Positions 1,589 to 23,355 of a stretch of 23,376 bases of DNA are shown in pieces. Source of the stretch: Clostridia bacterium (GTDB lineage Bacteria > Bacillota_A > Clostridia > Christensenellales > Aristaeellaceae); NCBI GenBank assembly GCA_017399225.1, contig JAFQEB010000081.1, forward strand, positions 1 to 23,376, in the 5' to 3' direction. The position numbers and the translations under genes are program-made. Every line of letters begins with the position of its first letter. Positions within the stretch are counted from its first letter, which is position 1. Below the pieces are notes generated by a model. That model had not been told where the DNA came from, made no database searches, and saw only the letters and a list, made by a program, of their open reading frames with translations.

Positions 1589-1615
1589 ACATATCCCTCC
1601 TGTTTTTACAACAGA

Positions 1616-2797: not shown

Positions 2798-2809
2798 GAT
2801 GCTTCCTCC

Positions 2810-3649: not shown

Positions 3650-3702
3650 TGTGTTCCTCCCCTTCGTTGGCCGCAGGCGTTTCTGCAGCATATTTCCCTC
3701 AT

Positions 3703-3731
3703 ATTATACAGCAATTTTTGCAATCATGCAA
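3703..3731 (-). promoter_or_regulatory. Promoter of the uronate operon
   Basis: The minus strand carries TTGCAT (3731-3726) and TATAAT (3708-3703) separated by exactly 17 bases, a near-consensus vegetative promoter. It leaves a leader of about 45 bases before the isomerase ATG. Confidence 0.75.
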
Positions 3732-3743
3732 GCACAATATTGT
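3718..3743. promoter_or_regulatory. Two palindromes overlapping the uronate operon promoter (operator candidates)
   Basis: TTGCAATCATGCAA (3718-3731) is an inverted repeat TTGCA-N4-TGCAA that covers the -35 box. ACAATATTGT (3734-3743) is a perfect 10-base palindrome just upstream of it. A repressor binding the first would block RNA polymerase directly. No regulator gene is adjacent, so the protein is unknown. The rest of 3744-3870 is AT-rich and shows no gene or clear terminator for metF. Confidence 0.45.
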
Positions 3744-3870
3744 ATTTTATTGATTTTATTGCTCGTAATTCTCAGTACAATTTCTTAGGGGAAACAGCCT
3801 GCGCCCGCTGCCTGTTCGGAACACAAAACAGCGCGATACTGTCCTTTATAGACTGTACCACGCCGGATGG

Positions 3871-8393: not shown

Positions 8394-8433
8394 GTATGCG
8401 TAGAAATATACCTTCACGGAGGATCACCCCTTT

Positions 8434-9252
8434 ATGGCAGATCAACGCTGTTCCCTGTGCCGCATCGCGCTGGAAAACGTGTCCGTTGCCCGCGGCGGCC
8501 AGAATCTGTTGCAGGATGTGTCCATGCACATCCACTGCGGCCAGCTGACCGTCCTGATCGGTCAGAACGGCGCAGGCAAAACGACCCTGATCCGGGCCCT
8601 GCTGGGCGAATTGCCCCACGGCGGCGCCATCCGCCATGTGGACGGCGAAAACCGCCAGGTGCCCCGGCTGCGAACGGGCTATGTGCCCCAGCACCTGCAG
8701 TTTGACAAGGAGATGCCGGTCACGGTGGAGGACTTCCTCGCCGCCGCCTTCTCCCGCCGCCCGGTGTGGCTGGGCGTGAGCCGCAAGACCCGTCGGCGGG
8801 TGCTGGAGGCGCTGCGGGCTGTTGAAAGCGAGGATCTGGCAAAACGGCCCCTGGGCCGCTGCTCCGGCGGCGAGCTGCAGCGGGTGCTGCTGGCCCTGGC
8901 CATCAATCCCACCCCGGATCTGCTGGTGCTGGACGAGCCCGTCTCCGGCGTGGATCAGAACGGCCTGAAGCTGTTCCTGGATACCGTTGTCCGCCTCAAG
9001 GAGCAGCATCACATGGCCATCCTGCTGGTCAGCCACGACCTGAACCTGGTGCGCCAGTATGCGGATCATGTCGTGCTGCTGGATAAGAGCGTGCTGGTGC
9101 AGGGCGCGCCGGATGCAGTATTCGCCTCCCCCGAGTTCCAGATGATCTTCGGCGTGGGCGCACGCAACCTGCAATCCGCCCGCATCCATGGCGCCGGCCG
9201 ATGGACGCCCCGCGTCACTGCGGAGCAAACCGATGAGGAGGTGACCGAGTGA
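8434..9252 (+). CDS. znuC: Zinc/manganese-type ABC transporter ATPase
   Basis: A 272-residue nucleotide-binding subunit that powers metal import at the inner face of the membrane. Walker A is GQNGAGKTT (43-51), the Q-loop is at Gln86, the signature is CSGGELQR (143-150), Walker B is LLVLDEP (163-169, catalytic Glu168) and the switch His is His201 (LVSHDLN). The Q86-H-L-Q-F context and the S-H-D-L-N-L-V segment fit the ZnuC/MntB-type branch, and so does the partner gene. A Cys-x-x-Cys pair sits at residues 6-9. GGAGG lies eleven bases before ATG 8434. It overlaps the permease gene by one base. Whether the metal is zinc or manganese cannot be decided. Confidence 0.85.
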   Translation: MADQRCSLCRIALENVSVARGGQNLLQDVSMHIHCGQLTVLIGQNGAGKTTLIRALLGELPHGGAIRHVDGENRQVPRLRTGYVPQHLQFDKEMPVTVEDFLAAAFSRRPVWLGVSRKTRRRVLEALRAVESEDLAKRPLGRCSGGELQRVLLALAINPTPDLLVLDEPVSGVDQNGLKLFLDTVVRLKEQHHMAILLVSHDLNLVRQYADHVVLLDKSVLVQGAPDAVFASPEFQMIFGVGARNLQSARIHGAGRWTPRVTAEQTDEEVTE

Positions 9253-10064
9253 TGGACGCGCTCCATGCCTTCCTTGAATTTGAATTCATGCGCAACGCGC
9301 TCTTCGCCATCCTGCTGCTCACGCCCCTGCTGGCGCTGCTGGGCACGATGGCCGTCAACCAGCAGATGGCCTTCTTCTCCGACGCCCTGGGCCACAGCGC
9401 CCTCACCGGCATCGGCCTTGGCGTGGTGCTGGGCCTCTCCAGCGATCTTCTGGCCATGCTGATCTTCGGCGTGGTATGGGCCTTCCTCATCTGCCGCATC
9501 AAACAGACCGGCGCTGCCTCCACGGATACGGTCATCAGCGTCTTCTCCTCCACCGCCGTGGCGGCGGGCCTGCTCATCCTCTCCCGGGGCGGCAGCTTCG
9601 CCAAGTACTCCCGGCTGCTGGTGGGCGACGTGCTGGCTGTGACCGTACCGGATCTCCTCTACCTGGCCATCGCGCTGGTCGCCGGCGTGATCCTCTGGGC
9701 GCTGATGTACAACCACCTTCTGCTGGGCAGCATCAACCCCTCCCTGGCAAAGACCCGCGGCGTCCGCGTGCAGCTGGTGGAATGCGCCTTTGTGGTGCTG
9801 GTGGCCGTGGCCGTCATGCTCTCCATCAAGTGGGTGGGCGTGATGCTCATCAATGCCCTGCTGATCCTTCCCGCTGCCGCAGCGCGCAACATCGCCCGCT
9901 CCAGCCGGCAGCACGCGCTGTGGAGTGTGGGCATCGCCCTTGTATGCGGCGTGCTGGGCCTGATCCTCTCCTGGTACATGGATACCACCGTCGGCGCGGC
10001 CATCGTGCTGTGCGCGGCGGTATGCTACTTCGTTTCCCTGGGGCTGCGGCGCTTTATCCGCTGA
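9252..10064 (+). CDS. znuB: Zinc/manganese-type ABC transporter permease
   Basis: A 270-residue integral membrane protein of the ABC-3 family (ZnuB/MntC-like) with about eight hydrophobic segments. Family marks are the early FFSDALGHSALTGIGLG segment and the later SIKWVGVMLINALLILPAAAARNIARS segment, which contacts the ATPase. ATG 9252 shares its A with the TGA of znuC; GGAGGT lies about nine bases upstream. Translational coupling of the two subunits is likely. No solute-binding lipoprotein (ZnuA) is encoded in the window. Confidence 0.87.
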   Translation: MDALHAFLEFEFMRNALFAILLLTPLLALLGTMAVNQQMAFFSDALGHSALTGIGLGVVLGLSSDLLAMLIFGVVWAFLICRIKQTGAASTDTVISVFSSTAVAAGLLILSRGGSFAKYSRLLVGDVLAVTVPDLLYLAIALVAGVILWALMYNHLLLGSINPSLAKTRGVRVQLVECAFVVLVAVAVMLSIKWVGVMLINALLILPAAAARNIARSSRQHALWSVGIALVCGVLGLILSWYMDTTVGAAIVLCAAVCYFVSLGLRRFIR

Positions 10065-10101
10065 TCCCCCGCGATCTCAATTTCGAAGGAGGCTGACGCT
10101 G

Positions 10102-11553
10102 ATGGATCGCATCCTGATCCTGATGGCCGCAGATGAATTTGCCGACGCGCAGTCCGCGCTGCTTTCCGCCCGCAATGCAGCCGCCGAGCCCGACGCCCTC
10201 AGCTGGGGGCTTTCCCTTGCCGCCGAGCCGGATGAGGAAGCCAACGAAGCCATGCAGGAGCTGGGCATGGTACGCTTCCTCTGCCCGGAGGCAGATCTGT
10301 GGGCCGCCATGCCCAGCCTCTGGCAGGGCGAAAGCTATGTGCTGATGGCTCATCCCGCCATGCGCTTCACCAAGGGCTGGGACAAGGAGCTGCTCCGGGA
10401 ACTGCGCGCCTGCCCTGCCGGGCCGGTGCTTACCTGCGCGCTCACCGGTTATCTGCCCGTGCGGGAGGATCCGCTGGGCTCCGTCTGCCCTGTGGCAGCG
10501 GACGCCTTCAACGAGGACAGCGAGCTGACCTTCCACCACGGTATGCCCCTGCGCTTCACCGCCGGCCCGACCCGCGGGCCCTTTCTCCACCCGGACTTCT
10601 GCTTTGGCCCGGCAGGCTTCTTCCGCGCCCTGGCCGAAGGCGACGAGCCCCTGTTCATGCGGGCGTTCCGCGCGGGCTGGGAGCTGTATACGCTGCACCG
10701 CCCCATCATCCGCCTTTTGTGGGACGTGCCCGTCGACCCGGTGCGCATCCCCGCCACCCATGATCTGCAGGAAGATTTTGCGGCAGTCTTCGGCGTATCC
10801 TTCGCCACGCGGCTGCTGTCGCCCCAGTCCCGGCGGGGGATGCTCAGCGAGGAGCTGAAGCTGCGCCTCCGCGTGCCGGTGAGCGTCCGGGTGCGCGAGA
10901 GCTACCGACAGCACCGCTATACCCTCAAAACGAAGCTGCAGCGCCACACAGCCAAGCTGGAGCCCAAGTGCGTGACCCTCTACACCTCCCTGATGGAGGA
11001 GGAGACCCTGCGCTGGCTCAAGCAGCTGGCAACGCTCAGGAACCTGCCGCTGGTAGCCTATGTGGAGCCGCTGCTGGTGCGGCAGATCGCCGAATTCCTG
11101 CCCAGCGTGCATGAATTCCGGCCCCGGCACGGCATGGAGCTGCCGGTGGACGCCCCCGAGGCGCTGATCCCCCTTTCCAAGGCAGCGCTGCTGTCCACCG
11201 CAAGGGACAAGTACCTCACCCCCAGCCATTACGTCTGGATGGACGCCGACGCCATCCGCTACCCCGTGTATGAACGCACCTTCTTCAACTGGGAGGCCAT
11301 CTGCACCGGCAAGATCGTGATGGCCATGGTGAACGGCGTGCCGGATACGACGCTCTTTGCCGTGCCGGAGAAGCTGGTGCTGAACCTGATGCGCGACATG
11401 CAGGCCCGGGCCCTGGTGCTGCTGGAGCAGCGCGGCGCCCTGCCCACCGAACAGGAGCTGTGGGAGCTGGTCATCCGCGAAAACCCGGACTGGTTCAGCC
11501 TGGTGGTGCTGCCGGTCAAGGGGCAGCTTTTCACGCTGATCTGCGACAACTGA
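10102..11553 (+). CDS. Two-domain glycosyltransferase-like protein (GT60-like plus HtrL/YibB-like)
   Basis: A 483-residue cytoplasmic protein without signal peptide or membrane segments. Residues 1-210 resemble GlcNAc-transferase (GT60-type) domains: a repeat-like start ILILMAADEFADAQ, then YVLMAHPAMRFTKGWDKELLREL where relatives have a D-S-H metal site before M-R-F-x-x-G-W-D, then FCFGPAGFF and AFRAGWELYTLHRP. The metal motif is altered to A-H-P. Residues 288-478 resemble HtrL/YibB-type transferases: CVTLYTSLMEEETLRWLKQL, LPLVAYVEP, then IPLSKAALL and YVWMDADAI with a candidate metal-binding D-A-D at 381-383. AGGAGG lies nine bases before the ATG. Placement 37 bases after znuB may reflect a shared transcript only. 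Families are assigned from pattern memory, so moderately sure. Confidence 0.55.
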   Translation: MDRILILMAADEFADAQSALLSARNAAAEPDALSWGLSLAAEPDEEANEAMQELGMVRFLCPEADLWAAMPSLWQGESYVLMAHPAMRFTKGWDKELLRELRACPAGPVLTCALTGYLPVREDPLGSVCPVAADAFNEDSELTFHHGMPLRFTAGPTRGPFLHPDFCFGPAGFFRALAEGDEPLFMRAFRAGWELYTLHRPIIRLLWDVPVDPVRIPATHDLQEDFAAVFGVSFATRLLSPQSRRGMLSEELKLRLRVPVSVRVRESYRQHRYTLKTKLQRHTAKLEPKCVTLYTSLMEEETLRWLKQLATLRNLPLVAYVEPLLVRQIAEFLPSVHEFRPRHGMELPVDAPEALIPLSKAALLSTARDKYLTPSHYVWMDADAIRYPVYERTFFNWEAICTGKIVMAMVNGVPDTTLFAVPEKLVLNLMRDMQARALVLLEQRGALPTEQELWELVIRENPDWFSLVVLPVKGQLFTLICDN

Positions 11554-11606
11554 ATCTCCTCTCCCGCATAGAATGATTCCCATGACCGCAAAGGACGGTG
11601 ACGCCG

Positions 11607-12512
11607 ATGTTTATTGCCGATACCCACTCCGATACGCTGTTTTCCCTGGGCGTGATGAAGCGCAGCCTGACGGAAACCTGCATCACCCCCCGGAGGCTTC
11701 TCGAGGGCGGCGTAAGCCTGCAGACCTTCGCCCTGTGGAGCGGCCCCAAGGGCCCCGACGGGGATTATGAGGCCATTGCCGAGGCAGAATACGCCGCAGT
11801 CCCCATTTTGACCGCCGCAGGACTGCGCCAGGTGGATGACCCCGGCGAGGCCAAAGCAGGCGAAAATGCCTTCATGCTGTCCCTGGAGGGCTGCGAGGTC
11901 TTCCACAAGGGGCTCACCGCCGTGGCCGACTGGCGTCAGCGCGGCATCCGCATGGGCGCACTGGTCTGGAACAACGTCAACCTGATCGGCACCCCTGCAA
12001 AGGTGAACGCCGATGACCGCCTGACGGACTACGGCGTCAAGGTCGTGCATGAGATGCAGCGGCTGGGCATGGCCGTGGACGTCAGCCACCTCAACGAAGG
12101 CGGCTTCTGGGATCTGTTCCGGCGGGGACACCGTCCTCCCATGGCCAGCCACTCCTGCTGCCGTGCCCTGTGCGATCACTTCCGCAACCTGACGGATGAA
12201 CAGATCCGCATGATGATCCAGTACGGCGGCTACATCGGCGTAAACTTCTACCCTGTTTTCCTCTCCGAGGACAAGGAGGCGGACAGCGTCACCATCGCCC
12301 AGCACATCGACCACATCTGCCAGATGGGCGGCGCGGAGATCGTGGGCTTCGGCAGCGACTTCGACGGCATCGAATGCGCCCCCGAGGACGTGCAGCATCC
12401 CGGGCAGATGGGCAATCTCCTGGAGGCGCTGAGGGACTACGGGTACGACGACGAGGCCCTCAGCGGCATTGCGGGAGAAAACCTCCTGCGGTATTACGAG
12501 CGAATCGGCTAA
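11607..12512 (+). CDS. Membrane dipeptidase family (peptidase M19)
   Basis: A 301-residue zinc metallopeptidase related to renal dipeptidase; bacterial members cleave dipeptides, often with a D-residue. The metal ligands are visible in order: His7-x-Asp9 in ADTHSDT, Glu in LSLEGCE (about 94), His161 in VDVSHLNE, His182 in MASHSCCRALC, and the Asp of GFGSDFDG near residue 247. There is no signal peptide, so it is probably cytoplasmic despite the family name. ATG 11607 is preferred over the in-frame GTG at 11598 because the AAGGA lies eleven bases before the former and only two before the latter. A good terminator follows. It could recycle peptidoglycan or dietary dipeptides. Confidence 0.9.
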   Translation: MFIADTHSDTLFSLGVMKRSLTETCITPRRLLEGGVSLQTFALWSGPKGPDGDYEAIAEAEYAAVPILTAAGLRQVDDPGEAKAGENAFMLSLEGCEVFHKGLTAVADWRQRGIRMGALVWNNVNLIGTPAKVNADDRLTDYGVKVVHEMQRLGMAVDVSHLNEGGFWDLFRRGHRPPMASHSCCRALCDHFRNLTDEQIRMMIQYGGYIGVNFYPVFLSEDKEADSVTIAQHIDHICQMGGAEIVGFGSDFDGIECAPEDVQHPGQMGNLLEALRDYGYDDEALSGIAGENLLRYYERIG

Positions 12513-12525
12513 GCATCTTTTTTCC

Positions 12526-12558
12526 GATCCTGGCCATACTACGGTCAGGATCTTTTTT
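12526..12558 (+). terminator. Rho-independent terminator after the dipeptidase gene
   Basis: GATCCTGGCC (12526-12535) pairs with GGTCAGGATC (12543-12552), with one G-U pair, around a short loop and is followed by TTTTTT (12553-12558). It separates the dipeptidase from the ABC ATPase, whose ribosome binding site starts six bases later. Confidence 0.85.
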
Positions 12559-12576
12559 GTTTTGGAGAGGTATGTC

Positions 12577-13275
12577 ATGCTCATCGCTGACGCACTTACC
12601 CGTACCTACCCCATGGGAAGCCAGACCCTCACCGCGCTGGACCGCGTCTCCTTCCACATCCCCCAGGGGGAATACGCAGCCATCGTGGGCCCCAGCGGCT
12701 CCGGAAAGTCCACGCTGATGCACCTGCTGGGCTGCCTGGATTCCCCCACCTCCGGCAGCTACCGCCTGCACGGACGGGACGTTTCCCGCCTCTCCGGAAA
12801 GGAGCTGGCACGGGTGCGCGGGGCAGAGATCGGCTTTGTATTCCAGGGGTTTCAGCTCATTCCCCGGCTGACGGCCCTGGAAAACGTGGCGCTGCCCATG
12901 CTGCTGTGCGGCATTCCGGCCAAAGCACGCAACGCCCGGGCAGAGCTGCTGCTGGCCCGGGTGGGACTCGCCGACCGGCTGCACCACAAGTCCACGCAGC
13001 TTTCCGGCGGTCAGCAGCAGCGGGTGGCCATTGCCCGGGCCCTCAGCCGCGACCCTGCCGTGCTGCTGGCAGACGAGCCCACCGGCAGCCTTGACCCCCG
13101 ATCCACCCGCGAGGTGCTGGCGCTGCTGGACGAATTGCACCGGGAGGGGCATACCGTGGTGCTCATCACCCACGATATGAAGGTGGCCGCCCAGGCGGAC
13201 AGGCAGCTGGAGATCGCAGGCGGAAGGCTGGTGGCTGACCGCCGCAGAACAGCGAAAGCGCAGGCTTCACCGTAG
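12577..13275 (+). CDS. ABC transporter ATPase, LolD/MacB type (orphan)
   Basis: A 232-residue ATPase of the MacB/LolD/FtsE-like group. Walker A GPSGSGKST, the Q-loop VFQGFQLIPRLTALENV (the F-Q-x-F-x-L-I-P-x-L-T form typical of this group), signature LSGGQQQRVAIARAL, Walker B VLLADEPTGSLD and the switch histidine in ITHD are all intact. ATG 12577 is chosen since GGAGAGG lies six bases upstream; the longer frame would begin inside the dipeptidase gene. Members work with FtsX/MacB-like permeases in lipoprotein release, peptide export or bacteriocin resistance, but no permease gene is next to it. The following gene is a response regulator, so it may belong loosely to an envelope-stress neighbourhood. 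Confidence 0.88.
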   Translation: MLIADALTRTYPMGSQTLTALDRVSFHIPQGEYAAIVGPSGSGKSTLMHLLGCLDSPTSGSYRLHGRDVSRLSGKELARVRGAEIGFVFQGFQLIPRLTALENVALPMLLCGIPAKARNARAELLLARVGLADRLHHKSTQLSGGQQQRVAIARALSRDPAVLLADEPTGSLDPRSTREVLALLDELHREGHTVVLITHDMKVAAQADRQLEIAGGRLVADRRRTAKAQASP

Positions 13276-13314
13276 AATTTACACAAAACTGTGACAATTC
13301 CATTGCACTCCTTA

Positions 13315-13343
13315 TTGATTTTTTCAACATTTCGTCGTACAAT
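13315..13343 (+). promoter_or_regulatory. Promoter of the two-component/GerMN operon
   Basis: TTGATT (13315-13320) and TACAAT (13338-13343) are separated by exactly 17 bases, giving a leader of about 25 bases to the regulator ATG at 13375. TTTACA (13278-13283) and GTGACA (13291-13296) lie just upstream and could be half-sites for an OmpR-type regulator, for example for autoregulation. Confidence 0.65.
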
Positions 13344-13374
13344 ATTCTTAATCATGAATAAAGGAGTGTCACAA

Positions 13375-14067
13375 ATGGGTAAGCATATCCTCCTTGTTGA
13401 CGACGAGCCCCTGATCCTCAAGGGCCTGAAATACACATTGGAGCAGGAAGGCTACGAGATCGAGCTGGCCATGGACGGCGAAGAGGCGCTGGAGAAGTTC
13501 CTCGCCCGGCCCTTTGATCTGGTGCTGCTGGACGTGATGCTGCCCAAGCTGGACGGGCTGAGCGTGTGTCAGCGCATCCGCGAGCACTCCAATGTGCCGA
13601 TCATCATGCTGACTGCCAAGGGCGAGGATATGGACAAGATCCTCGGCCTGGAATACGGCGCGGACGATTATATGACCAAGCCCTTCAACATCCTGGAGGT
13701 GCGGGCCCGCATCCGCACGGTGCTGCGGCGCGCCGGCTCCTCCCAGCCGATGGAAGACAAGAAGATCATCCGCGTGCGGGATATGGAGGTCAACCTCCTC
13801 AAGCGCACGGTGACCCTGGGCGGCAAGGACGTCAAGCTGACCGCCAAGGAGTTTGACCTGCTGCAGCTCTTCATCACCAACAGGGGCCGCCCCTTCTCCC
13901 GCAAGGAGATGCTGGAGACCGTCTGGAAGTACGATTACACCGGCGACGCCCGCACGGTGGACGTGCACATCCGCCGCCTGCGCGAAAAGGTGGAGCGCAA
14001 CACCAATCAGCCGGAGTTCATCCTGACCAAATGGAAGGTGGGTTACTATTTCACCGACAAGGATTAA
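13375..14067 (+). CDS. OmpR/PhoB-family response regulator
   Basis: A 230-residue DNA-binding regulator. The receiver domain (residues 1-118) has the acidic pair Asp9-Asp10, phosphoacceptor Asp53 (LLDVMLPKLDG), Thr80 and Lys102 (DDYMTKPFN). The winged-helix domain (about 131-228) shows KLTAKEFDLLQLF, the recognition region RKEMLETVW and RTVDVHIRRLREK, ending in VGYYF. ATG 13375 has AAGGAG eight bases upstream. It is the first gene of an operon with the kinase seven bases downstream, then two GerMN lipoproteins and a P-type ATPase-like membrane protein. It is closest in style to PhoP/YycF-type regulators; the regulated genes are unknown. Confidence 0.93.
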   Translation: MGKHILLVDDEPLILKGLKYTLEQEGYEIELAMDGEEALEKFLARPFDLVLLDVMLPKLDGLSVCQRIREHSNVPIIMLTAKGEDMDKILGLEYGADDYMTKPFNILEVRARIRTVLRRAGSSQPMEDKKIIRVRDMEVNLLKRTVTLGGKDVKLTAKEFDLLQLFITNRGRPFSRKEMLETVWKYDYTGDARTVDVHIRRLREKVERNTNQPEFILTKWKVGYYFTDKD

Positions 14068-14074
14068 GCGGCCC

Positions 14075-15487
14075 TTGCTGTCAAGCATCCGCTGGAAGAT
14101 ACTGCTGACCTTCCTGATCATCATCGGGGCGTCCTTTGCGATGATGGCCGCCCTGCTTACCGGCCTTGTCAGCAGCACGCTCTATGCACAGCGCACCCGG
14201 CAGGACAGTCTTTCAGTAGAGAGACTGGCCGCGTCGGCTGCGCCTTTTTTTGCCTCCGCCCGGATGGAGGAGCTGCATGAGACCCTCTCCACCGCCGCCA
14301 GCGAGCTGGGCGGAAGGCTGATCGTCGTTTCCCCGGACGGCAAGGTACAGCTGGACACCTTCGCCCTTCTTGAGGGCACAAAGCTGACGCTGCCGGAGGT
14401 CGTTACCGCCCTCACAGGAGAAGTCTCCCACGCCTATGGGATCTATCCGGCGCAAAGCAGCGGCGAATATGCCGCCCTGTGCGCCGCCCGCATGACCAGC
14501 GGGAATGAGACCATCGGCGCGCTGCTCCTCTCCACGCCCGTCACTGAGCTGCGAAACGCCATCGTCACCGTGGAGCAGCAGCTGCTGACCGTGTTCATCG
14601 CCGTGGCTGCCGCAGCAATGATCGCAGCGCTGGTGTTCGCCCTGACGCTCACGCGGCCGGTCAAGGCGCTGACCTCCGCCATCCGCCGGATGGGCCGGGG
14701 GGATCTCTCCGCCCGGGTCAAGGTGCGGGCCTCCGGTGAAATGAAGGAGCTGGCGGACAGCTACAACGCCATGGCCGAGAAGATCGAGAACTTCGACCGC
14801 AGCCGAAGCCAGTTCGTCTCCAACGCCTCCCATGAACTCAAAACGCCGCTGGCGACCATGAAGATCCTGCTGGAAAACCTGATCTACCAGCCTGAAATGC
14901 CCAAGGACTTGCAGGTGGAGTTCATGCAGGACATGAACCATGAGATCGACCGGCTGACCGGCATCATCAACGATCTGCTCACCCTGACGCAGATGGACAG
15001 CCAGAGCACCGCCCTGACAGAGGAGGAGGTCGATCTCTCCGGCCTGACCGAAGAGACGCTCCATACCCTCCGGGCTGCCGCTGCCAGGGCAGGCCAGCAG
15101 ATCAGCGACCGCATCGAGCCGGACGTCACACTCACCGGCGACCGCTCCAAGCTGGGACAGATCATCTACAACCTGATCGACAACGCCATCAAATACACCC
15201 CCGAGGGCGGCGAGATCCGCGTGACCCTGGCCAGCGAGGGACGCAATGCCGTGCTGACCGTCACCGACAACGGCATCGGTATCCCCGAGGATGATCAGGC
15301 CCACATCTTCGACCGTTTCTATCGGGTGGACAAGGCCCGCTCCCGCGCCACCGGCGGCACAGGCCTGGGCCTTTCTATCGTCCGGCAAATGGTGCAGCTC
15401 CACGGCGGCGAGATCACCGTTGCCTCCGCGCCGGAGAAGGGCTCCGTATTCACCGTAACACTGCCCACCAGAAGGGAGGGAGCATGA
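14075..15487 (+). CDS. Sensor histidine kinase
   Basis: A 470-residue membrane kinase, partner of the preceding regulator. TM1 spans about 8-30 and TM2 about 171-193. They enclose an extracytoplasmic domain of about 140 residues with a PAS/Cache-like strand (GGRLIVVSPDGKVQLDT). A HAMP segment (194-240) follows, then HisKA with phosphoacceptor His253 (NASHELKTPLA). HATPase_c carries the N box NLIDNAIKYTPEGG, the G1 box DNGIGIP, the F box IFDRFYRVDK and the G2 box GTGLGLSIV. The start is an unusual TTG at 14075; no ATG precedes TM1 and AAGGA lies eleven bases upstream. Its TGA overlaps the ATG of the GerMN lipoprotein, so the lipoprotein is made with the kinase and may modulate its sensor domain. 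Confidence 0.93.
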   Translation: MLSSIRWKILLTFLIIIGASFAMMAALLTGLVSSTLYAQRTRQDSLSVERLAASAAPFFASARMEELHETLSTAASELGGRLIVVSPDGKVQLDTFALLEGTKLTLPEVVTALTGEVSHAYGIYPAQSSGEYAALCAARMTSGNETIGALLLSTPVTELRNAIVTVEQQLLTVFIAVAAAAMIAALVFALTLTRPVKALTSAIRRMGRGDLSARVKVRASGEMKELADSYNAMAEKIENFDRSRSQFVSNASHELKTPLATMKILLENLIYQPEMPKDLQVEFMQDMNHEIDRLTGIINDLLTLTQMDSQSTALTEEEVDLSGLTEETLHTLRAAAARAGQQISDRIEPDVTLTGDRSKLGQIIYNLIDNAIKYTPEGGEIRVTLASEGRNAVLTVTDNGIGIPEDDQAHIFDRFYRVDKARSRATGGTGLGLSIVRQMVQLHGGEITVASAPEKGSVFTVTLPTRREGA

Positions 15488-16473
15488 TGCGCAGGCTGAT
15501 CCCCCTGTTCCTTTGCCTGCTGCTTTTCAGCAGCTGCTCTCCCCACGATCCTCTGGCCGATATGGCACAGCCTGCCGCCGATGAGCAGCTGACCGTCCCT
15601 GTGCCCGCCGCGGAGCAGACGTCCGCCCAGGCCCAGGCTGTAACGCTGTGGTTCCGTTTTGGCGACGAGCCCCTGCTGGCGCCGGAGAGCCGCACCATCG
15701 TCACATCCCCCACTGCGCCCTTTGAAATGACGCTCCTGCAGGCCCTCATTGGCGGGCCCTCGGCTGGTATGCTGGAGCTGAACAGCCTCTTCCCCCCCGG
15801 AACCAGGGTCGTATCCACCTACCGTCAGGGCAGGCTGCTCTTTGTTACCCTGTCCCGCCAGATCATGAACGCCTATGCGGACGAGCCGGAATTCTGGCAA
15901 TCGTCGCCGCAATGGGCAAGCGAGGTCCCCCTGCGCCGCCAGCTCGCCATGCAGGCCATCGCCGCCACAGTTACGGAAAACTGTGAGGTGGATCAGGTGG
16001 TCGTCCTGGTGGAGCAGGGCGCGCAGCCTACCGACAGTATGCGTCTGCGCCAGAGCTACTACCGCACCGGCGCCGATGCGTCCGCCCTGGCCGCGCCCCT
16101 GACGCGGGAGGAGGATCTGCTGCTGACCCCGCAGACCACGCTGGACATCATCCTGCGCTGTTGGTCAGAAAGAAACTGGGCGCGCCTGTACCGCTACGTT
16201 GCCAGTACAGATCCTGCCCAGAGTGCAGCGCGCCCTGATGTCGCCGATTTCACAGCGCAGATGGATCGCCTGCCCCTCCTGACGGACTACTCCTTTGAAG
16301 GCGGCAGCGTCAGCTATGACGGCGGCAGTGCTGCCTTCACCGCAGATCTGACGCTGATGGCGTCCGGGCAGGAATACACAGCCGGAAGCAGTGTGATCCG
16401 CCTGACCCGCGAGCGGGGCATATGGCGCATCGGCCTGAGTCAGCTGACCACGCGGGAGGTGACTGCCCCATGA
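15484..16473 (+). CDS. GerMN-domain lipoprotein
   Basis: A 329-residue exported lipoprotein. The signal sequence (MMRRLIPLFLCLLLFSSC) ends in a lipobox with Cys18. A GerMN domain spans about residues 50-178: VTLWFRFGDEPLLAPESRTI, TLLQALIGGP, FPPGTRVVSTYRQGRLLFVTLS, then the helix LAMQAIAATVTENCEVDQVVVLVE. Residues 215-328 form an NTF2/SnoaL-like tail (LDIILRCWSERNWARLYRYV to GIWRIGLSQL). GerMN domains occur in B. subtilis GerM (sporulation and germination) and actinobacterial LpqB. The ATGA overlap with the kinase gene indicates tight coupling. ATG 15487 is an alternative start that changes one residue. The role is likely envelope sensing or scaffolding, not catalysis. Confidence 0.85.
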   Translation: MMRRLIPLFLCLLLFSSCSPHDPLADMAQPAADEQLTVPVPAAEQTSAQAQAVTLWFRFGDEPLLAPESRTIVTSPTAPFEMTLLQALIGGPSAGMLELNSLFPPGTRVVSTYRQGRLLFVTLSRQIMNAYADEPEFWQSSPQWASEVPLRRQLAMQAIAATVTENCEVDQVVVLVEQGAQPTDSMRLRQSYYRTGADASALAAPLTREEDLLLTPQTTLDIILRCWSERNWARLYRYVASTDPAQSAARPDVADFTAQMDRLPLLTDYSFEGGSVSYDGGSAAFTADLTLMASGQEYTAGSSVIRLTRERGIWRIGLSQLTTREVTAP

Positions 16474-17972
16474 AGAGCAAGCGTCTGATCTGCCTGATGC
16501 TGTGCGCGCTGCTGCTGACGGGCTGCGCCGCCCAGGATGCGCCGCTTCCCGCTGCCGCGCCCACCCTGGCCCCGGACAGCACCGCCTTCGCAGCCCCCAT
16601 CGGCGACGCAGGGCTCATGCACAGCACCCCTGCCGCCTACGTCCTTTCCAGCCCGGATGGACAGCGGCTGCTCTACACCTATCGGGACACGCCCCTTGAT
16701 CGCAGCCAGCATCCCGCCGAGGCCATCGTCAGCCAGCTCCTGAAAGCAGAGAGCACGGCGGCTGCACGGGCCGTAGGCGGCAGCGTGCCCCTCTCCCTCA
16801 CCGGCGTCAATCCCGTGGAGGTTTCCGGCGGCGTCTGCACCGTCAATCTCTCTGCAACAGCGCTGCAGCTCTCCCTGCAGGATCTCCACAGCGCCTGCTG
16901 TATGCTTGCGGAGACCCTTTGCAGCATCGACGGCATCCAAAGCGTGAACATCCTGATCGCCGGACGCCCCGTGGCGATGGACGCCGCCGGCTTCCTGCCC
17001 CTGGGGGCGCTCTCCGCAAGCCACGACGCCTCCCTGCCGCTGCTGTGGGAGCAGCTGGCCGCCAAGCGGACGCCGCTGGGCGAAAAGCCGACGGCCATGC
17101 CGCTGACAGCGGACGCTGCACTGTACTTTCCCCTGACCGGCGGCGCGGGCATCGTGCCGGAAACACGGCGGTTATCCTTCCCCGGGCAGCATCCTCAGCA
17201 GCTGGTATTGACCTTGCTGGAGGCACTCTCCGCCGGGCCGACTGCGCTGAGCGGCGTCAGCGCCATGCCTGACCTTTCCGCCATGATGATCGCGCCCCCG
17301 TCAGTCACCGACCTGAGCACCGGCGGCAAGCGCGTGACGCTGTACTTCCCCGAGGATCTTCGCAGCCGCATCAGCGCCCTGGGCGCAGATCCTGCCTGCA
17401 CCTTCGCCGGGATCGTGTACACGCTGACCACCTTCGTCCCCGCCCTGGAGCAGGTGTGCATCCTCATGGGCGAAAACGCGCTGACCAGCCTGCACCATCC
17501 GGTGCACGGTTCGCAGCTCTTCCCCGGCGGCGTTCTGACCCGCCAGGCCTTCGCGGCCTACCTGATGGCCCAGGCCTCTGTTTATCACGCCGAAGGGGAA
17601 AAGCTCCACGCGCACACAGTCTCCCTGCCGTACCGCAGTGCGCGGTCTCCCCGGGCGCTGCTGCTGCGCCTGGCCGATGCGCCCCCCGAGTGTGCCGTGC
17701 TTCCCGCCGGGCTCACGGACGCCGATATCCTCGGACTTTCCATCGAAGGCGATACGCTGCTGATCAACCTCTCCGCCCGGTATGCCGATATGATCAGGAA
17801 AAGCGCCATGGATCAGCGCCTGATGGCCTATGCCATCGTCAACACCATGTGCGACGGCCTGCAGATCCGGCGCGTCCGCTTCTTCTTCGGCAGCCAGAGC
17901 GTGGATACGCTGGGCGGCAGCCTGATCTGGAGCGGCGAATTTCTCCGCACGCCCGGCCTCATCATCCGATAA
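16470..17972 (+). CDS. Lipoprotein with about three GerMN-like repeats
   Basis: A 500-residue exported lipoprotein with a signal MKSKRLICLMLCALLLTGC; the lipid-bearing Cys is residue 19, followed by an Ala/Pro-rich linker. Three regions share the GerMN layout (a beta-strand, a 'Q-x-L' helix, then a strand pair G-x-x-x-x-x-x-L, then a helix and a V-x-I/F strand). They are about 55-170 (clear: GGVCTVNLSATALQL, CSIDGIQSVNILIAGRPV), 215-335 (divergent: ALYFPLTGGAGIVPETRRLSF, GKRVTLYFPEDL) and 382-482 (GDTLLINLSARYADM, IRRVRFFFGSQSVDTLGG). The ATG overlaps the stop of the preceding lipoprotein gene (ATGA), and GGGAGGTGA supplies the ribosome binding site. The first ORF-frame Met upstream lies inside the previous gene and is rejected. 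No known close homolog is recognised; the function is unknown. Confidence 0.78.
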   Translation: MKSKRLICLMLCALLLTGCAAQDAPLPAAAPTLAPDSTAFAAPIGDAGLMHSTPAAYVLSSPDGQRLLYTYRDTPLDRSQHPAEAIVSQLLKAESTAAARAVGGSVPLSLTGVNPVEVSGGVCTVNLSATALQLSLQDLHSACCMLAETLCSIDGIQSVNILIAGRPVAMDAAGFLPLGALSASHDASLPLLWEQLAAKRTPLGEKPTAMPLTADAALYFPLTGGAGIVPETRRLSFPGQHPQQLVLTLLEALSAGPTALSGVSAMPDLSAMMIAPPSVTDLSTGGKRVTLYFPEDLRSRISALGADPACTFAGIVYTLTTFVPALEQVCILMGENALTSLHHPVHGSQLFPGGVLTRQAFAAYLMAQASVYHAEGEKLHAHTVSLPYRSARSPRALLLRLADAPPECAVLPAGLTDADILGLSIEGDTLLINLSARYADMIRKSAMDQRLMAYAIVNTMCDGLQIRRVRFFFGSQSVDTLGGSLIWSGEFLRTPGLIIR

Positions 17973-17999
17973 CCGATCCTCACAGGAGGCATGATCCCC

Positions 18000-19472
18000 A
18001 TGAAGCTCTGTACCCTGTGCCACTGGCTGCTGGAAAAGCGGCGGTGGCTGCTGCTGCCTGCCGCCATGGCGCTTGCCCTGGCGCTGTCCTTCGTGCTGCC
18101 CACGCCGCTGTGGCTGCTTATGTGTGCCGCGGTGACGCTGCCGGCCGGCCTGACGCTCCTCTACGCCTGGAGGATGCGCGGCCTCGTACTGACGGGCAAC
18201 AGCCGGCCCGTGGCGCCCCAGGACGCCCAGGCGGAGATCGTTGCCGTCGACGCCTCGCTGCTGGATCAGGGAATGCAGCTCCAGGCGGCGGCCCAGCCCT
18301 TTGAGATCGTGCCGGAAATGTCGCTGCGGATGGGTGGCGGCGCGCTGCTGCTGGGTACCGCCATGGCACTGCTGGCAGATCGTCTCCCTGACCGGGAGCG
18401 CCGCGCAGTCCTGAAGGGCGCAGAGGCACTGAACCTGCGCAGCGCCGCCCTGAAGCAGCAGTATCCCGCCGTATATCAGGGAACAGAGGACGGCATGGAC
18501 TGCCTTTCCGTCCAGGACGGCAATCAGGAGCGCAGCTACTTCATGGGCGATGCGGATACCGTCACAAGCTGCTGCGGCTCCATCTGGGATGGAAGTCTGC
18601 GCCTCATGGGTGAAGCCGACCGCCGGCGCATCCTGGAAAGCGCAGGGCAGATGAAAATGGGCGGCCGCCGCGTGATCGCCTACGCGACCGCCGCAGGCAA
18701 TGAAAAACCTGCCTTCCTGGGGCTGATCACCCTTGGGGACATGCTGAACCTGCAAGCCATTTTTGAAATGAACAAGCTGCGGGACATGGGCCTGACCCTG
18801 ATGCTGCGGGACGACGGCGCGGCGCCGCTGGATATCGCCGCGCTGCGCAACACCCTGGAGCTCCCCGACCTGCACGCCCGGCCTGATATCTGCCTCTGTG
18901 CGGGCGAGCCTTACCCGGATCAGCATTGCCTGAGCATCCTGATGGAGAAGGATCGTCCGCTGTCGGGCCCGCTCCGGCTGCTGCGGGAGCATTACAGCTT
19001 CATGACCCGGCTGCTGTGCGGTGTCTTCCGGACGGGCGCAGCCATTTTTCTCTGCTGCATGCTGGCAGGCGGCAACGCCTCCGTGCTGCTGTCGGCCATC
19101 GTGCTCGCAGCGGCTGTCACGACCTTCGGTGACTCCGGCGAAGCTGCGCCCCTCAGATGGTATTCCGCTGCCTTTGCCGCCGCCTGCTGCCTCCCCGTCC
19201 GGATGCTGCTGAACGCCGCCGCCCCCCTGGCAGCCGATGCTGCAGGGAGCTGCCTCTGCACCCTGCTGGCGGCGCTGCTTTCCCTGGCCCTTGCGCCCCG
19301 CCCGCGCCAGCTCACCCCTATGGCGCTGCTGCCGCTGGCCGTGAGCACCCTCGGCTCGCTCCTGCCGCTCCTGACGGCTCTGCCGCAAACCCTGCTGCCA
19401 GGGGCCTTCGTCATTGTATGCGCCCTCCTCATCGGACTGAGCACCCTGCTGATCCACTGGCGCAGAACGTAA
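18000..19472 (+). CDS. P-type ATPase-like membrane protein lacking catalytic motifs
   Basis: A 490-residue integral membrane protein. TM1-TM2 lie at about 15-57, a soluble region at 60-335, and four to six hydrophobic segments at 336-486. The soluble part follows a P-type ATPase in order. VDASLLDQGMQL (83-94) stands where DKTGTLT-x-x-x-M would be. SYFMGDADTVTSCCGSIWDG (179-198) sits at the KGAPE site, GGRRVIAYA (221-229) at 'G-x-RVLA-x-A', and AFLGLITLGDMLNLQAIFEMNKLRDMGLTLML (238-269) at the 'FLGLxxxxDPPR...I..L..aGI' stretch. SILMEKDRPLSGPLRLLREHY (312-332) matches the segment after the hinge. DKTGT, KGA and GDGxND are lost and no actuator domain is present. ATG 18000 (AGGAGG ten bases upstream) is preferred to 17991 (one base). 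It is probably a pseudo-enzyme with a sensing or scaffold role. Confidence 0.6.
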   Translation: MKLCTLCHWLLEKRRWLLLPAAMALALALSFVLPTPLWLLMCAAVTLPAGLTLLYAWRMRGLVLTGNSRPVAPQDAQAEIVAVDASLLDQGMQLQAAAQPFEIVPEMSLRMGGGALLLGTAMALLADRLPDRERRAVLKGAEALNLRSAALKQQYPAVYQGTEDGMDCLSVQDGNQERSYFMGDADTVTSCCGSIWDGSLRLMGEADRRRILESAGQMKMGGRRVIAYATAAGNEKPAFLGLITLGDMLNLQAIFEMNKLRDMGLTLMLRDDGAAPLDIAALRNTLELPDLHARPDICLCAGEPYPDQHCLSILMEKDRPLSGPLRLLREHYSFMTRLLCGVFRTGAAIFLCCMLAGGNASVLLSAIVLAAAVTTFGDSGEAAPLRWYSAAFAAACCLPVRMLLNAAAPLAADAAGSCLCTLLAALLSLALAPRPRQLTPMALLPLAVSTLGSLLPLLTALPQTLLPGAFVIVCALLIGLSTLLIHWRRT

Positions 19473-19482
19473 AAATTCACGG

Positions 19483-19544
19483 TTTACATGCAAATGTTCA
19501 TAAGTCGTTCATCACCATGCAAAATACATCGTATATACTATGAT
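19483..19544 (+). promoter_or_regulatory. Promoter/operator region of the HtrA gene
   Basis: An AT-rich tract with -10-like boxes (TATACT 19534-19539, TATGAT 19539-19544) but no convincing -35. Upstream are GTTCAT repeated exactly 11 bases apart (19496-19501, 19507-19512), CATGCAAA repeated 29 bases apart (19487-19494, 19516-19523) and TTTACA (19483-19488). Direct repeats at one helical turn are the usual binding layout of OmpR-family regulators. No terminator is seen between the operon above and this gene. Confidence 0.4.
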
Positions 19545-19597: not shown

Positions 19598-20890
19598 ATG
19601 AGCAATCGCATTCGCCGCATGGTAGGCTGCGCAGCTATGGCGCTGGCCTGCCTGATGATCGGCTCCGCCATGACCCAGACGCTGACCCCTATCGCCGCTG
19701 CTGAGCAGGAACAGGCAGTCACCAAGGTCATCCACACCAGCCCCTTCACCGCTGCCATCGCGGAAGTCCGCAGCAGCGTGGTGGGCGTGAGCAATTATCA
19801 GAAGGTGACCTACGGCAATTACGGCAACGGCTACGGCAGCTTCTACTTCGGCTTCGGCTACGGTTACGGCGGCCGCGGCAACGAGAAGGAACCTGAGACC
19901 CGCGAGGAGCTGGCCTCCACCGGCTCCGGCGTGGTGATCGGCAATGGCTTCGTGCTGACGAACTACCATGTGGTCGAGGACGCCTCTTCCCTGAAGGTGA
20001 CCGTCACCGACGATGCCGGCGAGACCTCGGAATTCGCCGCTTCCCTGGTAGCCTATGACGAAAACCTGGACGCGGCCATCATCTATGCCCCCGAGTGCGA
20101 GCTGCCCCCCGTCGTGCTGGGCGACAGCGACAGCCTGCTGGTGGGCGACTGGGCCATCTGCATCGGCAATCCCCTGGGCTTTGCCAAGACCACCACGGTG
20201 GGCGTCGTGTCCGCGCTGAACCGCTCGGTGGAGTCCGAGACCTATGACCGCTACGGCCGCCGCGAGACCATCTCCAACGCCATGATCCAGGTCGATGCTG
20301 CCATCAACTCCGGCAACTCCGGCGGCGGCATGTTCTCCGTGACGGGCGAGCTGATGGGCATCCCCACCCTCAAGTACTCCGGCAGCTACTTCTCCGGCTC
20401 GGCGGTAGAGGGCATCGGCATGTGCATCCCCGTCAACGCCGTCAAGCCCCTGATCGACGACGTGCTCAGCGGCCGCATCCAGGCCATTCCCCCGGAGGAG
20501 AGCGCCGAGGCGGAGACTGAAACCGCCGGCGGTCTGGTGGGCAGGCCCCGCCTGGGCGTGAGCATCGCGGACGTGAACACCAACACCCGCGCCGCCATGC
20601 TGGGCCAGATCCCGGACGGCGTGTTCATCACCGAGGTGGAGGAGAATTCCCCCGCCCAGAAGGCCGGTATGGAAGAGGGCGATATCGTTGTCGAGATCAA
20701 CGGCACCATCATCACCTCCGCCAGCCAGATGCAGAGCGTTGTGGGCAACTATGCCGCCGGCGACGCCCTGAAGGTGAAGGTCTACCGTGCCCCCGGCATC
20801 CTGGATATCTCCGGCAACGAAGACGCCCCCGACGGCGAGTACGTCGACCTGGAGGTCACCCTGGCCATTATCGACGATATCAAGCAGTAA
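19598..20890 (+). CDS. HtrA/DegP-type serine protease with PDZ domain
   Basis: A 430-residue envelope protease that degrades or refolds damaged exported proteins. A signal or anchor segment spans about 8-34. The chymotrypsin-fold domain holds the triad His124 (LTNYHVVED), Asp158 (ENLDAAII) and Ser241 (GNSGGGMF, where most relatives have GNSGGPL). A PDZ domain follows at about 317-425 (RLGVSIADV, GVFITEVEENSPAQKAGMEEGDIVVEING). Residues 72-93 form an unusual Tyr/Gly/Phe-rich stretch before the protease core. AGGAGGT lies eight bases before the ATG. It has its own upstream region but follows the kinase/GerMN operon, recalling CssRS control of htrA in Bacillus. The catalytic assignment is secure; the regulatory link is inferred. 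Confidence 0.92.
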   Translation: MSNRIRRMVGCAAMALACLMIGSAMTQTLTPIAAAEQEQAVTKVIHTSPFTAAIAEVRSSVVGVSNYQKVTYGNYGNGYGSFYFGFGYGYGGRGNEKEPETREELASTGSGVVIGNGFVLTNYHVVEDASSLKVTVTDDAGETSEFAASLVAYDENLDAAIIYAPECELPPVVLGDSDSLLVGDWAICIGNPLGFAKTTTVGVVSALNRSVESETYDRYGRRETISNAMIQVDAAINSGNSGGGMFSVTGELMGIPTLKYSGSYFSGSAVEGIGMCIPVNAVKPLIDDVLSGRIQAIPPEESAEAETETAGGLVGRPRLGVSIADVNTNTRAAMLGQIPDGVFITEVEENSPAQKAGMEEGDIVVEINGTIITSASQMQSVVGNYAAGDALKVKVYRAPGILDISGNEDAPDGEYVDLEVTLAIIDDIKQ

Positions 20891-21656: not shown

Positions 21657-23273
21657 TTAGTCGATTTTCCCGACAAATCGGTAGTAGATTTCGATCTTCT
21701 GCGTCCGCTGGCCGCCTTCGCCCTTGACAGCTTCATGGATCACGATCTTCTCGATCAGCTCATTCAGCATTTCAGCAGTCAGTGCCGTCGGATTCACATA
21801 GCGCTTGATCAGCTCCAGCCACTTTGCCGTATTCTCAGTGGTCTGGCGATCAGCTGCCAGCGCGTCCTTCAGCTGGGCAATCTGCGCAGTAAGCGCCTGT
21901 TGCTCATCCTGGTATTTCTCGGACAGCATCGTGAAGCTGTATTCTGTGATACGGTCGGCTGACCAGTCTTCGTACAGCTTCATGAACAGACGATCCACTT
22001 CAGCTTTACGCTTCTCTGCTTTCGCAAGGGCTGCCGCCTGCTTTATGCTGACAGCGGCTTTTTCCTTATCGCCAGCATTCAGCAGTTCACGATACAAGGT
22101 AGCTTCATCAACGGCGGCACGCTGCGACCAGTATTGCAGACGGGACAGAACATAGCTGTACAGCACATCGTAGCGGACATAATGCGCGGTGCATTTGCCC
22201 AACGACTTTCCATACTGCCTGTAATTCAGACAGTTATAGTAGCTGTACGGAGTCTTGTTTGACTTGTTGGTTGCGAAACTCAGTGACCACCCACAGTCAG
22301 AACAGCGAAGCAGTCCAGCGAAAATCTGAGTAGTGGCATCCTTCATCCGACGGCGGCGATGGTCAATCTGCTCCTGCACACGATAGAACACATCCTTGCT
22401 GATGATAGCTTCGTGTGTTCCTTCTACCCGTACCCATTCCTCCTCTGGCTTACGAATCCTCCGTTTGTTTTTATAGGAGATATTCGTCTGCTTGTTGTGG
22501 ATGGTATTGCCGATGTAGGTCTCATCGCGTAGGATACTTTTGATTGCTGCCAGCGTCCAGGCATAGGATTTCTCTTCAGGCTGATCAGCGTAAATATGAG
22601 CGAATTTCCCATAACGCTGATATTGGATGAAGCCAGGTGTCGGAACCTTTTCGGAAATCAGCACGCGGCCAATCTTTGCCGAACCTGCGCCGTGCAACGC
22701 CATGTCGAAAATCTTCTCAATGATCCATTTTGTTTCAGGATCAACGATCAGATGATTCCGCCTGTTCGGATCTTTCATGTACCCCAACGGAGCGTAGGTC
22801 ACCATGCGCTCTCCGGCAGCATGCTTCGCATGAAGCGCCGTTTTCACCTTACGGCTGGTGTCTTTGGCGTACCATTCGTTGAACAGGTTCTTGAAGGGCA
22901 CAAAGTCGGACAATCCGCGATCGGTGTCTTCGTTCTCCGCAACGGCGATGAAGCGTACCTTCTTCTCCGGAAAGACATATTCCAGATAGAAGTCCATCGT
23001 CACATGCTCACGTCCGAAGCGGCTCAGGTCTTTCACCACGATGCAGGTGATCTTCCCAGCATCAACGTCGTCCATCATCCGCTGAAAGGCAGGACGCTCA
23101 AAGTTGGTTCCGCTCCAGCCATCGTCCACGTATTCATCAACAACGTGGAGTTGCTGTTCCTGGGCGAACTTACGCAGGATGGTCCTCTGCGTTTCAATGG
23201 AAACGCTGTCGCCAAAGCGTTCGTCGTCACGGCTGAGTCTCATATATAGTGCGGTATTGTTTGGTTGTTTCAA
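21657..23273 (-). CDS. Large serine recombinase (site-specific integrase) with C-terminal DUF4368-like region
   Basis: A 538-residue recombinase. The resolvase domain (about 1-145) has nucleophile Ser14 in YMRLSRDDE, the SVSIETQRTIL helix, EYVDDGWSGTNFERPAFQRMM and VVKDLSRFGREH. The recombinase domain follows (APLGYMKDPNRRNHLIVDP, IKSILRDETYIGNTIHNK). A zinc ribbon comes next (CSDC ... YYNC ... GKC), then a coiled coil (about 400-490) and a tail like DUF4368 (LNELIEKIVIHEAVK to IEIYYRF). The start is TTG 23273: AGAAGGAGG lies six bases upstream, while the longer frame from ATG 23303 includes that site. Such enzymes integrate and excise clostridial conjugative or mobilizable elements. It sits at the element's edge and its insertion disrupts the XRE gene. 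Confidence 0.93.
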   Translation of the reverse strand: MKQPNNTALYMRLSRDDERFGDSVSIETQRTILRKFAQEQQLHVVDEYVDDGWSGTNFERPAFQRMMDDVDAGKITCIVVKDLSRFGREHVTMDFYLEYVFPEKKVRFIAVAENEDTDRGLSDFVPFKNLFNEWYAKDTSRKVKTALHAKHAAGERMVTYAPLGYMKDPNRRNHLIVDPETKWIIEKIFDMALHGAGSAKIGRVLISEKVPTPGFIQYQRYGKFAHIYADQPEEKSYAWTLAAIKSILRDETYIGNTIHNKQTNISYKNKRRIRKPEEEWVRVEGTHEAIISKDVFYRVQEQIDHRRRRMKDATTQIFAGLLRCSDCGWSLSFATNKSNKTPYSYYNCLNYRQYGKSLGKCTAHYVRYDVLYSYVLSRLQYWSQRAAVDEATLYRELLNAGDKEKAAVSIKQAAALAKAEKRKAEVDRLFMKLYEDWSADRITEYSFTMLSEKYQDEQQALTAQIAQLKDALAADRQTTENTAKWLELIKRYVNPTALTAEMLNELIEKIVIHEAVKGEGGQRTQKIEIYYRFVGKID

Positions 23274-23298
23274 ATTTATCCTCCTTCTGATGAAACAA

Positions 23299-23355
23299 CC
23301 CACGCTTACACAATACTTGCACCTCCATTATAGCGCAAGCGTGGGCTGTATGCAA
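23299..23355 (-). promoter_or_regulatory. Recombinase promoter inside nested inverted repeats
   Basis: The minus strand has TTGCAT (23355-23350) and TATAAT (23332-23327) with a 17-base spacer, a near-consensus promoter. CCCACGCTT (23299-23307) and AAGCGTGGG (23337-23345) are perfect nine-base inverted repeats flanking the -10 box. A smaller pair, CTTGC (23316-23320) and GCAAG (23335-23339), is nested inside. Candidates are an operator or a recombinase binding site. The last 21 bases of the window show nothing further. Confidence 0.6.

Follow-up and report, generated by a model that had tools for sequence, protein, structure and literature searches.

P-type ATPases are defined by an aspartate that is phosphorylated. 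In the window, by which the whole stretch of 23,376 nucleotides analysed here is meant, a 490-aa protein (hereafter X) resembles such an enzyme in several segments but lacks its hallmark motifs, and its gene lies in a row with those of a two-component system, two GerMN proteins and an HtrA-type protease. This raises the question of where X comes from and what a protein of this kind could do beside a histidine kinase. The features of the locus are as follows, each with the model or method behind the assignment.

13291..14067, + strand: response regulator of the OmpR/PhoB type, true start probably later (Response_reg 4.1e-32, Trans_reg_C 6.8e-28)
14075..15487, + strand: sensor histidine kinase, HAMP-HisKA-HATPase_c (best NCBIfam model WalK, 1.8e-88, under cut-off)
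15484..16473, + strand: GerMN protein 1 (GerM1), lipoprotein-type signal FSSC (Germane 1.3e-7)
16470..17972, + strand: GerMN protein 2 (GerM2), lipoprotein-type signal LTGC (Germane 3.3e-26)
18000..19472, + strand: X, putative pseudo-P-type ATPase, 490 codons open (P-type ATPase homology)
18048..18164, + strand: two N-terminal membrane stretches of X, residues 17-35 and 37-55 (hydropathy)
18225..18869, + strand: X residues 76-290, covering the beginning of the P domain, the N domain, the hinge and the post-hinge strand (hhalign)
18249..18251, + strand: codon of Asp84 of X, in the place of the phosphorylated Asp, with DASLL for DKTGT (alignment)
19050..19454, + strand: C-terminal membrane region of X, five stretches, residues 351-485 (hydropathy)
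19496..19512, + strand: direct repeat GTTCAT-N5-GTTCAT with an 11-bp period, possible response-regulator site of htrA (sequence)
19598..20890, + strand: HtrA-type serine protease with PDZ (Trypsin_2 2.4e-27, PDZ_2 2.8e-13)

The operon and its surroundings

The Pfam matches, together with lipoprotein-type signal peptides read by eye in both GerMN proteins, agree with an earlier note on this DNA that had placed X beside a two-component system and GerMN lipoproteins. The best NCBIfam models of the response regulator (RpaB, YycF and MtrA) all scored under their cut-offs, as did degP_htrA_DO for the protease (8.7e-74). The kinase gene overlaps that of GerM1 by four bases, and the same overlap is found between GerM1 and GerM2 if the latter starts at 16470; its listed frame opens at 16422, and Cys35 of that listed frame is invariant in 14 aligned rows. 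The open frame and the good ribosome-binding site described earlier for X could both be verified, the latter as AGGAGG at 17984-17989. The spacing and the conserved gene order suggest that X is co-transcribed with the operon. A scan of the window with Rfam gave no match, and a promoter/terminator scan gave 3 and 6 sites with 1.5 and 4.4 expected.

Upstream of the operon (8434-13275, + strand) are ABC-3 type transporter genes, a GlcNAc glycosyltransferase-like protein, an M19 dipeptidase and a second ABC ATPase, a block that is conserved in three loci from Clostridia MAGs (L001-L003) and in L036. Past the end of the operon a large serine recombinase (Resolvase, Recombinase, DUF4368; 21657-23303, - strand) possibly marks the border of a mobile element. 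A putative 1002-aa frame at 938-3946 (+ strand) had no Pfam match at E 0.001.

Relationship of X to P-type ATPases

Searches with the single sequence of X gave no family in Pfam and no match in the PDB, and profiles were therefore needed. When 5.8 billion proteins were searched (7997 candidates scored), 21 relatives were found, one of them 97% identical and the others 38-55%; one is labelled Aristaeellaceae by its source, and a further protein search with the alignment added no more. The query was aligned with 20 relatives, excluding the 383-aa fragment P0021, to give the profile A1, and a wider X profile, A3, was made from 28 rows. The 21 aligned rows of the window's clade all start with MK(L/R) and are 481-492 aa long. 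A scan of genome contigs with the single X protein found nothing, and the alignment was used instead.

Comparison of A1 with 31 intact ATPases from the same bacterial family by hhalign aligned residues 76-290 of X with a probability of 98.4% and an E value of 8.9e-15. Among the NCBIfam models TIGR01522 (PMR1-type Ca-ATPase) was matched by 16 of the 21 X rows at E <= 1, the best at 2.6e-6 and the window's own row at only 0.027, and a SERCA-type model by 8 of the 21 (best 0.002); no match to TIGR01522 over the cut-off was seen in 60 genomes. In the PDB the sole match of A1 was SPCA1 (ATP2C1, E 0.008), and the same held for A3 (E 0.0014). A Pfam scan of the 21 rows at E <= 1 gave no more than scattered single matches to other families, the best at 0.014, and the PF13246 label that P0022 carries in the database was not reproduced by it.

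A3 also picked up full-length ATPase frames, the lowest E value being 4.5e-23 for the sample of the order and 1.2e-34 for that of the family. When 297 genomes from the order and 245 from the class were searched, the A3 matches at E <= 1e-8 were either X (G001, G027 and G028) or frames of 685-1069 aa and nothing else, and a chance or low-complexity similarity was rejected on this ground; all except three of these frames are at least 870 aa long. Eleven of these order and class loci were analysed: DKTGT was present in the longest frame at nine, the longest frame at L146 and L149 being another one, and all eleven hold a DKTGT frame of more than 500 aa.

Three soluble X proteins (L037, L040 and L042) match the N-domain family PF13246 above its curated cut-off (5.7e-10, 2.4e-8 and 1.6e-10, respectively), and several P-type ATPase models of the Ca2+ and Mg2+ kinds as well. 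With L042, 56 distinct P-type ATPase sequences of solved structure were matched, the best being MgtA (4.2e-10) followed by LMCA1 (1.8e-7). The other seven of the ten X proteins scanned had no Pfam family match.

The significant matches of the profile searches are thus to P-type ATPases and not to an unrelated family, and they show a P-type ATPase origin of X. The P2A (Ca2+-ATPase) kind is the one it resembles most, this subtype being assigned by nearest relatives. The earlier note had X following P2-type ATPases segment by segment up to the final membrane helices. This holds from the beginning of the P domain through the N domain to the post-hinge strand, and the segments VDASLL, YFMGDADTV, GGRRVIAYATA and FLGLITLGD are all found in the sequence; for the final helices it was not confirmed, as 11 of 40 column shuffles reached the score observed for residues 330-490 (the TM5-TM10 region). 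Residues 1-75 are also not clear of the controls (2 of 40 shuffles), and for the later P domain (ARVSP/GDGxND) no match was detectable, 4 of 40 shuffles reaching the score for residues 286-345 and 37 of 40 that for residues 291-340. A resemblance seen by eye between PDICLCAG in X and ADIGVAMG in the pumps was unsupported by the column-shuffle test, and an attempt to prove with shuffled columns that the outer helices descend from a pump failed.

To compare motifs, 53 X rows were used: 25 of the window's clade, 23 other membrane X and 5 that are soluble or have two membrane stretches (2-TM). Some are near-duplicates (e.g. P0022 and L002), and the alignment of single columns is uncertain for rows as divergent as these. 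DKTGT, which carries the phosphorylated Asp of P-type ATPases (PMC10654040), is absent from all 53 X rows and present in all 31 intact ATPases, so the loss extends to every row compared. In the window DASLL stands in its place and YFMGDADTV in that of the KGAPE region. An Asp is kept at the phosphorylation site throughout the window's clade (25/25) and the soluble/2-TM group (5/5) and in 11 of the 23 other membrane X. The KGA lysine is found in 30 of the 31 intact ATPases and in 3 of the 5 soluble/2-TM X, and in none of the window's clade (0/25) or of the 22 itemised rows of the other membrane X; the adenine-site Phe is likewise missing throughout the window's clade (0/25). TGD and GDGxND are absent at the aligned columns in this clade. 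The actuator domain (TGE; Pfam E1-E2_ATPase) was not among the matches of the 21 X rows at E <= 1, and it was found in all three intact ATPases scanned. What X retains is the FLG hinge strand, with its Gly in 53 of 53 rows. Because the catalytic motifs are missing, X can, to judge from these columns, no longer run the P-type phosphorylation cycle.

A pseudo-ATPase could nevertheless still bind nucleotide through its N domain and report the ATP/ADP level to the kinase operon. The soluble L037, L040 and L042 would suit such a sensor, as they keep the KGA-site lysine and an (F/L)xYD..R near the adenine site, but the loss of both lysine and Phe from the window's clade, and of the lysine from the itemised rows of the other membrane X, makes a nucleotide sensor unlikely. 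Passive transport by a channel or facilitator freed from ATP coupling would fit the 4-8 hydrophobic stretches predicted by hydropathy in membrane X, whereas L037, L040 and L042 have no such stretch, and the columns of A3 that are invariant (G241) or nearly so (P100, A121, C192 and L240) all lie in the cytoplasmic core; such a function is considered quite improbable.

When pairs of X genes were compared, dN/dS was 0.155-0.534 in seven pairs. X had the highest dN/dS of the operon genes compared in five of these and the highest dN in six, HtrA being comparable in four of the seven. X is accordingly under purifying selection and fast-evolving, that is kept, but loosely, which supports the earlier view that it is selected as something other than a pump. 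The high dN, and an A3 match in G049 that runs through a stop, might instead suggest a decaying pseudogene without function. This is hardly credible in view of the dN/dS values, the open frames of uniform length in 21 rows of the window's clade and the ribosome-binding site in the window, and the pseudogene reading was rejected.

Distribution of X and intact ATPases at the locus

In L001-L003 the gene order is that of the window. A search with A1 of 200 genomes from the family of G001 matched 54 of them at E <= 0.1, and in 18 of 20 X regions the order kinase-GerM1-GerM2-X was found, in 17 with the regulator as well (L040 ends before the regulator); the exceptions are L048, with X alone, and L052, which is without GerM2. 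In L048, X (8397-9863, - strand) has no regulator, kinase or GerMN gene in the surrounding 14.9 kb. With A3, 80 of the same genomes were matched at E <= 1e-6, and reading of these matches gave X in at least 35 of the 200, a lower bound because few candidates per genome were scored; the remaining matches are P-type ATPase frames or fragments. In 33 of the 35, X is the gene immediately after GerM2 and has the same orientation, and the conservation of gene order asked about earlier is thus widespread. The two others are G122 (X after GerM1, L052) and G180 (X unlinked, L048). The X frames range from 356 to 591 aa, the listed frame of 672 aa in L001 including an upstream extension, and the proteins have 0 to 8 hydrophobic stretches by hydropathy.

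GerM2 itself was found in 183 of the 200 genomes at E <= 1e-15, and comparison with the 35 that hold X implies that the kinase does not generally need X. Sixty further regions were drawn from 150 listed GerM2 places (L098 repeats L046), and those of G173 and G147 were chosen because an ATPase match was nearby. In a quick tree of regulator plus kinase (63 rows, SH-aLRT 96-99, no bootstrap) the 27 rows with membrane X require two changes, and the two rows with soluble X and the two with 2-TM X fall in the opposite half, interspersed with rows that lack X.

The usual order is regulator, kinase, GerMN, GerMN and X, and in 16 of the 35 genomes htrA comes immediately afterwards in the same orientation; in 8 genomes htrA stands immediately behind GerM2. 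The proximity of X and htrA could mean that HtrA or the GerMN lipoproteins, and not the kinase, are what X serves, be it as inhibitor, anchor or secretion helper. X is, however, kept in cases where the region analysed showed no HtrA (e.g. L037, L038, L045 and L053), and partners outside the cell would be out of reach for soluble X, so that a role of this kind is regarded as doubtful.

When analysing 1.11 Mb of loci, GTTCA(T/C)-N5-GTTCA(T/C) was found 16 times, 15 of these upstream of htrA on the same strand and the remaining one just after X in L061. Counted by locus the repeat is present at 15 of 23 htrA loci and missing from 8, and it is also absent from the htrA regions of G173 and G147. 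A similar pattern occurs in 13 of 23 regions upstream of htrA (0.04 expected from base shuffles) and in 0 of 64 regions upstream of the regulator (0.14 expected); the pattern was chosen after its sighting in the window, and many of the loci counted are related. This repeat of the OmpR/PhoB type may be bound by the regulator of the operon itself, and would as such be a candidate handle on the regulon.

Intact ATPases were also found at or near the locus. In G173 an 880-aa DKTGT ATPase lies directly after GerM2, on the same strand and 148 bp away. In G147, on a contig that starts within GerM2, an intact ATPase of 882 aa follows GerM2 on its strand after a gap of 935 bp, in which an HTH-like frame runs the other way. 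In addition, contig C130 of G038 has an intact ATPase that lies 2.5 kb past GerM2 and is read in the opposite direction, and this protein (L136) ranks second of 42 for the profile of the window's clade. Among the 150 listed GerM2 places, related ATPases within 25 kb are confined to these three genomes and three further cases at 8.7-20.7 kb, with direct adjacency in G173 only. A search with the G173 ATPase gave a relative in 101 of the 200 genomes at E <= 1e-120, the closest being those of G147 (70% identity) and G036 (65%) and all others at most 53%, and the G173, G147 and G036 ATPases form one clade (SH-aLRT 94).

Of the 42 intact ATPases ranked, that of G036 comes first with each of four profiles of X subsets and with 8 of 11 X proteins taken singly, while that of G173 takes second place with the soluble and 2-TM subsets and eighth and tenth place with the membrane subsets. 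G036 also branches beside the membrane-X clade in the tree of regulator plus kinase. Divergent from its ATPase, contig C175 (L157 6112-6213) has the 17-bp repeat GTTCATAATCCGTTCAT and a ribosome-binding site ahead of a frame of which eight codons remain before the contig ends, and contig C53 (L158 1-120) opens inside htrA at about residue 9, lacking about eight residues. The two contigs probably hold one split htrA, head to head with an intact P2A-type ATPase, a link made across a contig break where the two ends share no sequence. Elsewhere the listed HtrA and ATPases are all more than 15 kb apart, the closest pair being at 17.8 kb (G186). In L035 (contig C5 of G077) a different P-type ATPase frame was seen about 110 bp after htrA; it has a long branch in the N/P-domain tree.

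Taken alone, the ATPase neighbour in G173 could be due to chance, and its weight comes from the combination with G036; the G147 and G173 ATPases, being 70% identical, may represent a single event. In the N/P-domain tree, which has long branches and a midpoint root, membrane X is not nested in an ATPase clade and soluble X groups with intact ATPases, and this separation means that more than one origin is possible. Either X would be old and often lost, or ATPase remnants would have arisen more than once. From gene position we infer that an intact P2A-like pump of this locus decayed in place into X.

Proposed role and comparison with known systems

The reading preferred here, with a probability put at roughly 0.47, is that the pump gene of a locus for a WalRK/MtrAB-like two-component system of the cell envelope decayed into X, which would now be an accessory protein of the kinase or of the GerMN lipoproteins. 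The ancestral locus would have held an intact P2A-like pump gene between GerM2 and htrA. This pump would have lost the actuator domain, DKTGT, TGD and GDGxND and, in the window's clade, also the KGA lysine and the adenine-site Phe, while the core of the N domain and early P domain was kept and in most lineages the membrane helices too. X would then act on the neighbouring kinase, or on GerMN lipoproteins that possibly modulate it, membrane-anchored in most lineages and with the cytoplasmic N-domain core as a protein-binding module. A cytoplasmic protein-binding role is favoured because the X forms share the cytoplasmic core and the soluble forms are without helices. Operon position and analogy with known accessory proteins point to a kinase modulator as the most likely function. 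A wider proposal, put forward tentatively, is that several lineages turned the P2A-type pump of the locus, to varying extents, into a non-catalytic accessory subunit of the kinase, the forms being an intact pump, a soluble remnant of the N and P domains, a 2-TM remnant and a many-TM remnant; X would then be a family of P-type ATPase pseudoenzymes with a part in signalling.

If so, the X family, having shed its catalytic motifs and kept the N-domain core, would show other uses of the fold, and the intact pumps and the soluble and membrane remnants at one locus would be a natural series of an enzyme becoming something else. X would also bring a protein of the Ca2+-pump type into the control locus of a system like WalRK/MtrAB. 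No pseudo, degenerate, truncated or inactive P-type ATPase was found in the literature covered, most subscription journals being outside it, and no operon of GerMN, histidine kinase and an X-like gene was among the best literature matches listed.

With P2A ATPases (SERCA, SPCA/PMR1 and LMCA1/lmo0841 of Listeria), and also with MgtA (P3B), X is homologous from the DKTGT site to the post-hinge strand, and X of the window's clade shares the Asp of the phosphorylation site with the P2A enzymes. It differs from these by its length (about 490 aa against about 880-940 aa) and by the absence of the actuator domain, DKTGT, the KGA lysine, TGD and GDGxND. The nearest case in the literature covered is from Plasmodium, where guanylyl cyclase alpha, a signalling enzyme, has an appended P4-ATPase domain; according to the title of PMC7858053 the activity of this ATPase domain is essential, while X is a separate protein without the catalytic motifs.

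In Bacillus the walRK operon continues with accessory genes and then a gene for an htrA-type protease. The window resembles WalRK-YycHI of Bacilli in that genes for a WalK/YycF-like kinase and regulator precede accessory genes and one for a protease of the htrA type, with GerMN proteins and X here in place of YycH and YycI. The kinase scored 297.7 bits against the WalK equivalog (cut-off 725) and the regulator 244.3 against YycF (cut-off 340), both below; a PAS domain is absent among the Pfam matches of the kinase, and the two genes after it match Germane and neither the YycH nor the YycI family. YycH and YycI modulate the phosphorylation of WalK, probably through membrane helices, according to PMC7355866.

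The actinobacterial MtrAB-LpqB system has regulator, kinase and GerMN lipoprotein in a row, as in the window, LpqB having a GerMN domain. Here the kinase scored 231.7 bits against MtrB (cut-off 450) and the regulator 227.9 against MtrA (cut-off 300), again both below, and the GerMN lipoprotein gene after the kinase is shared, Germane being found in both downstream genes. LpqB is an accessory protein of MtrB that lowers its activity (PMC5845573), and TapA, which has transmembrane helices, binds MtrB without the kinase domain and activates the system (PMC12338722). From MtrAB-LpqB the locus in the window differs by its two GerMN genes and by X.
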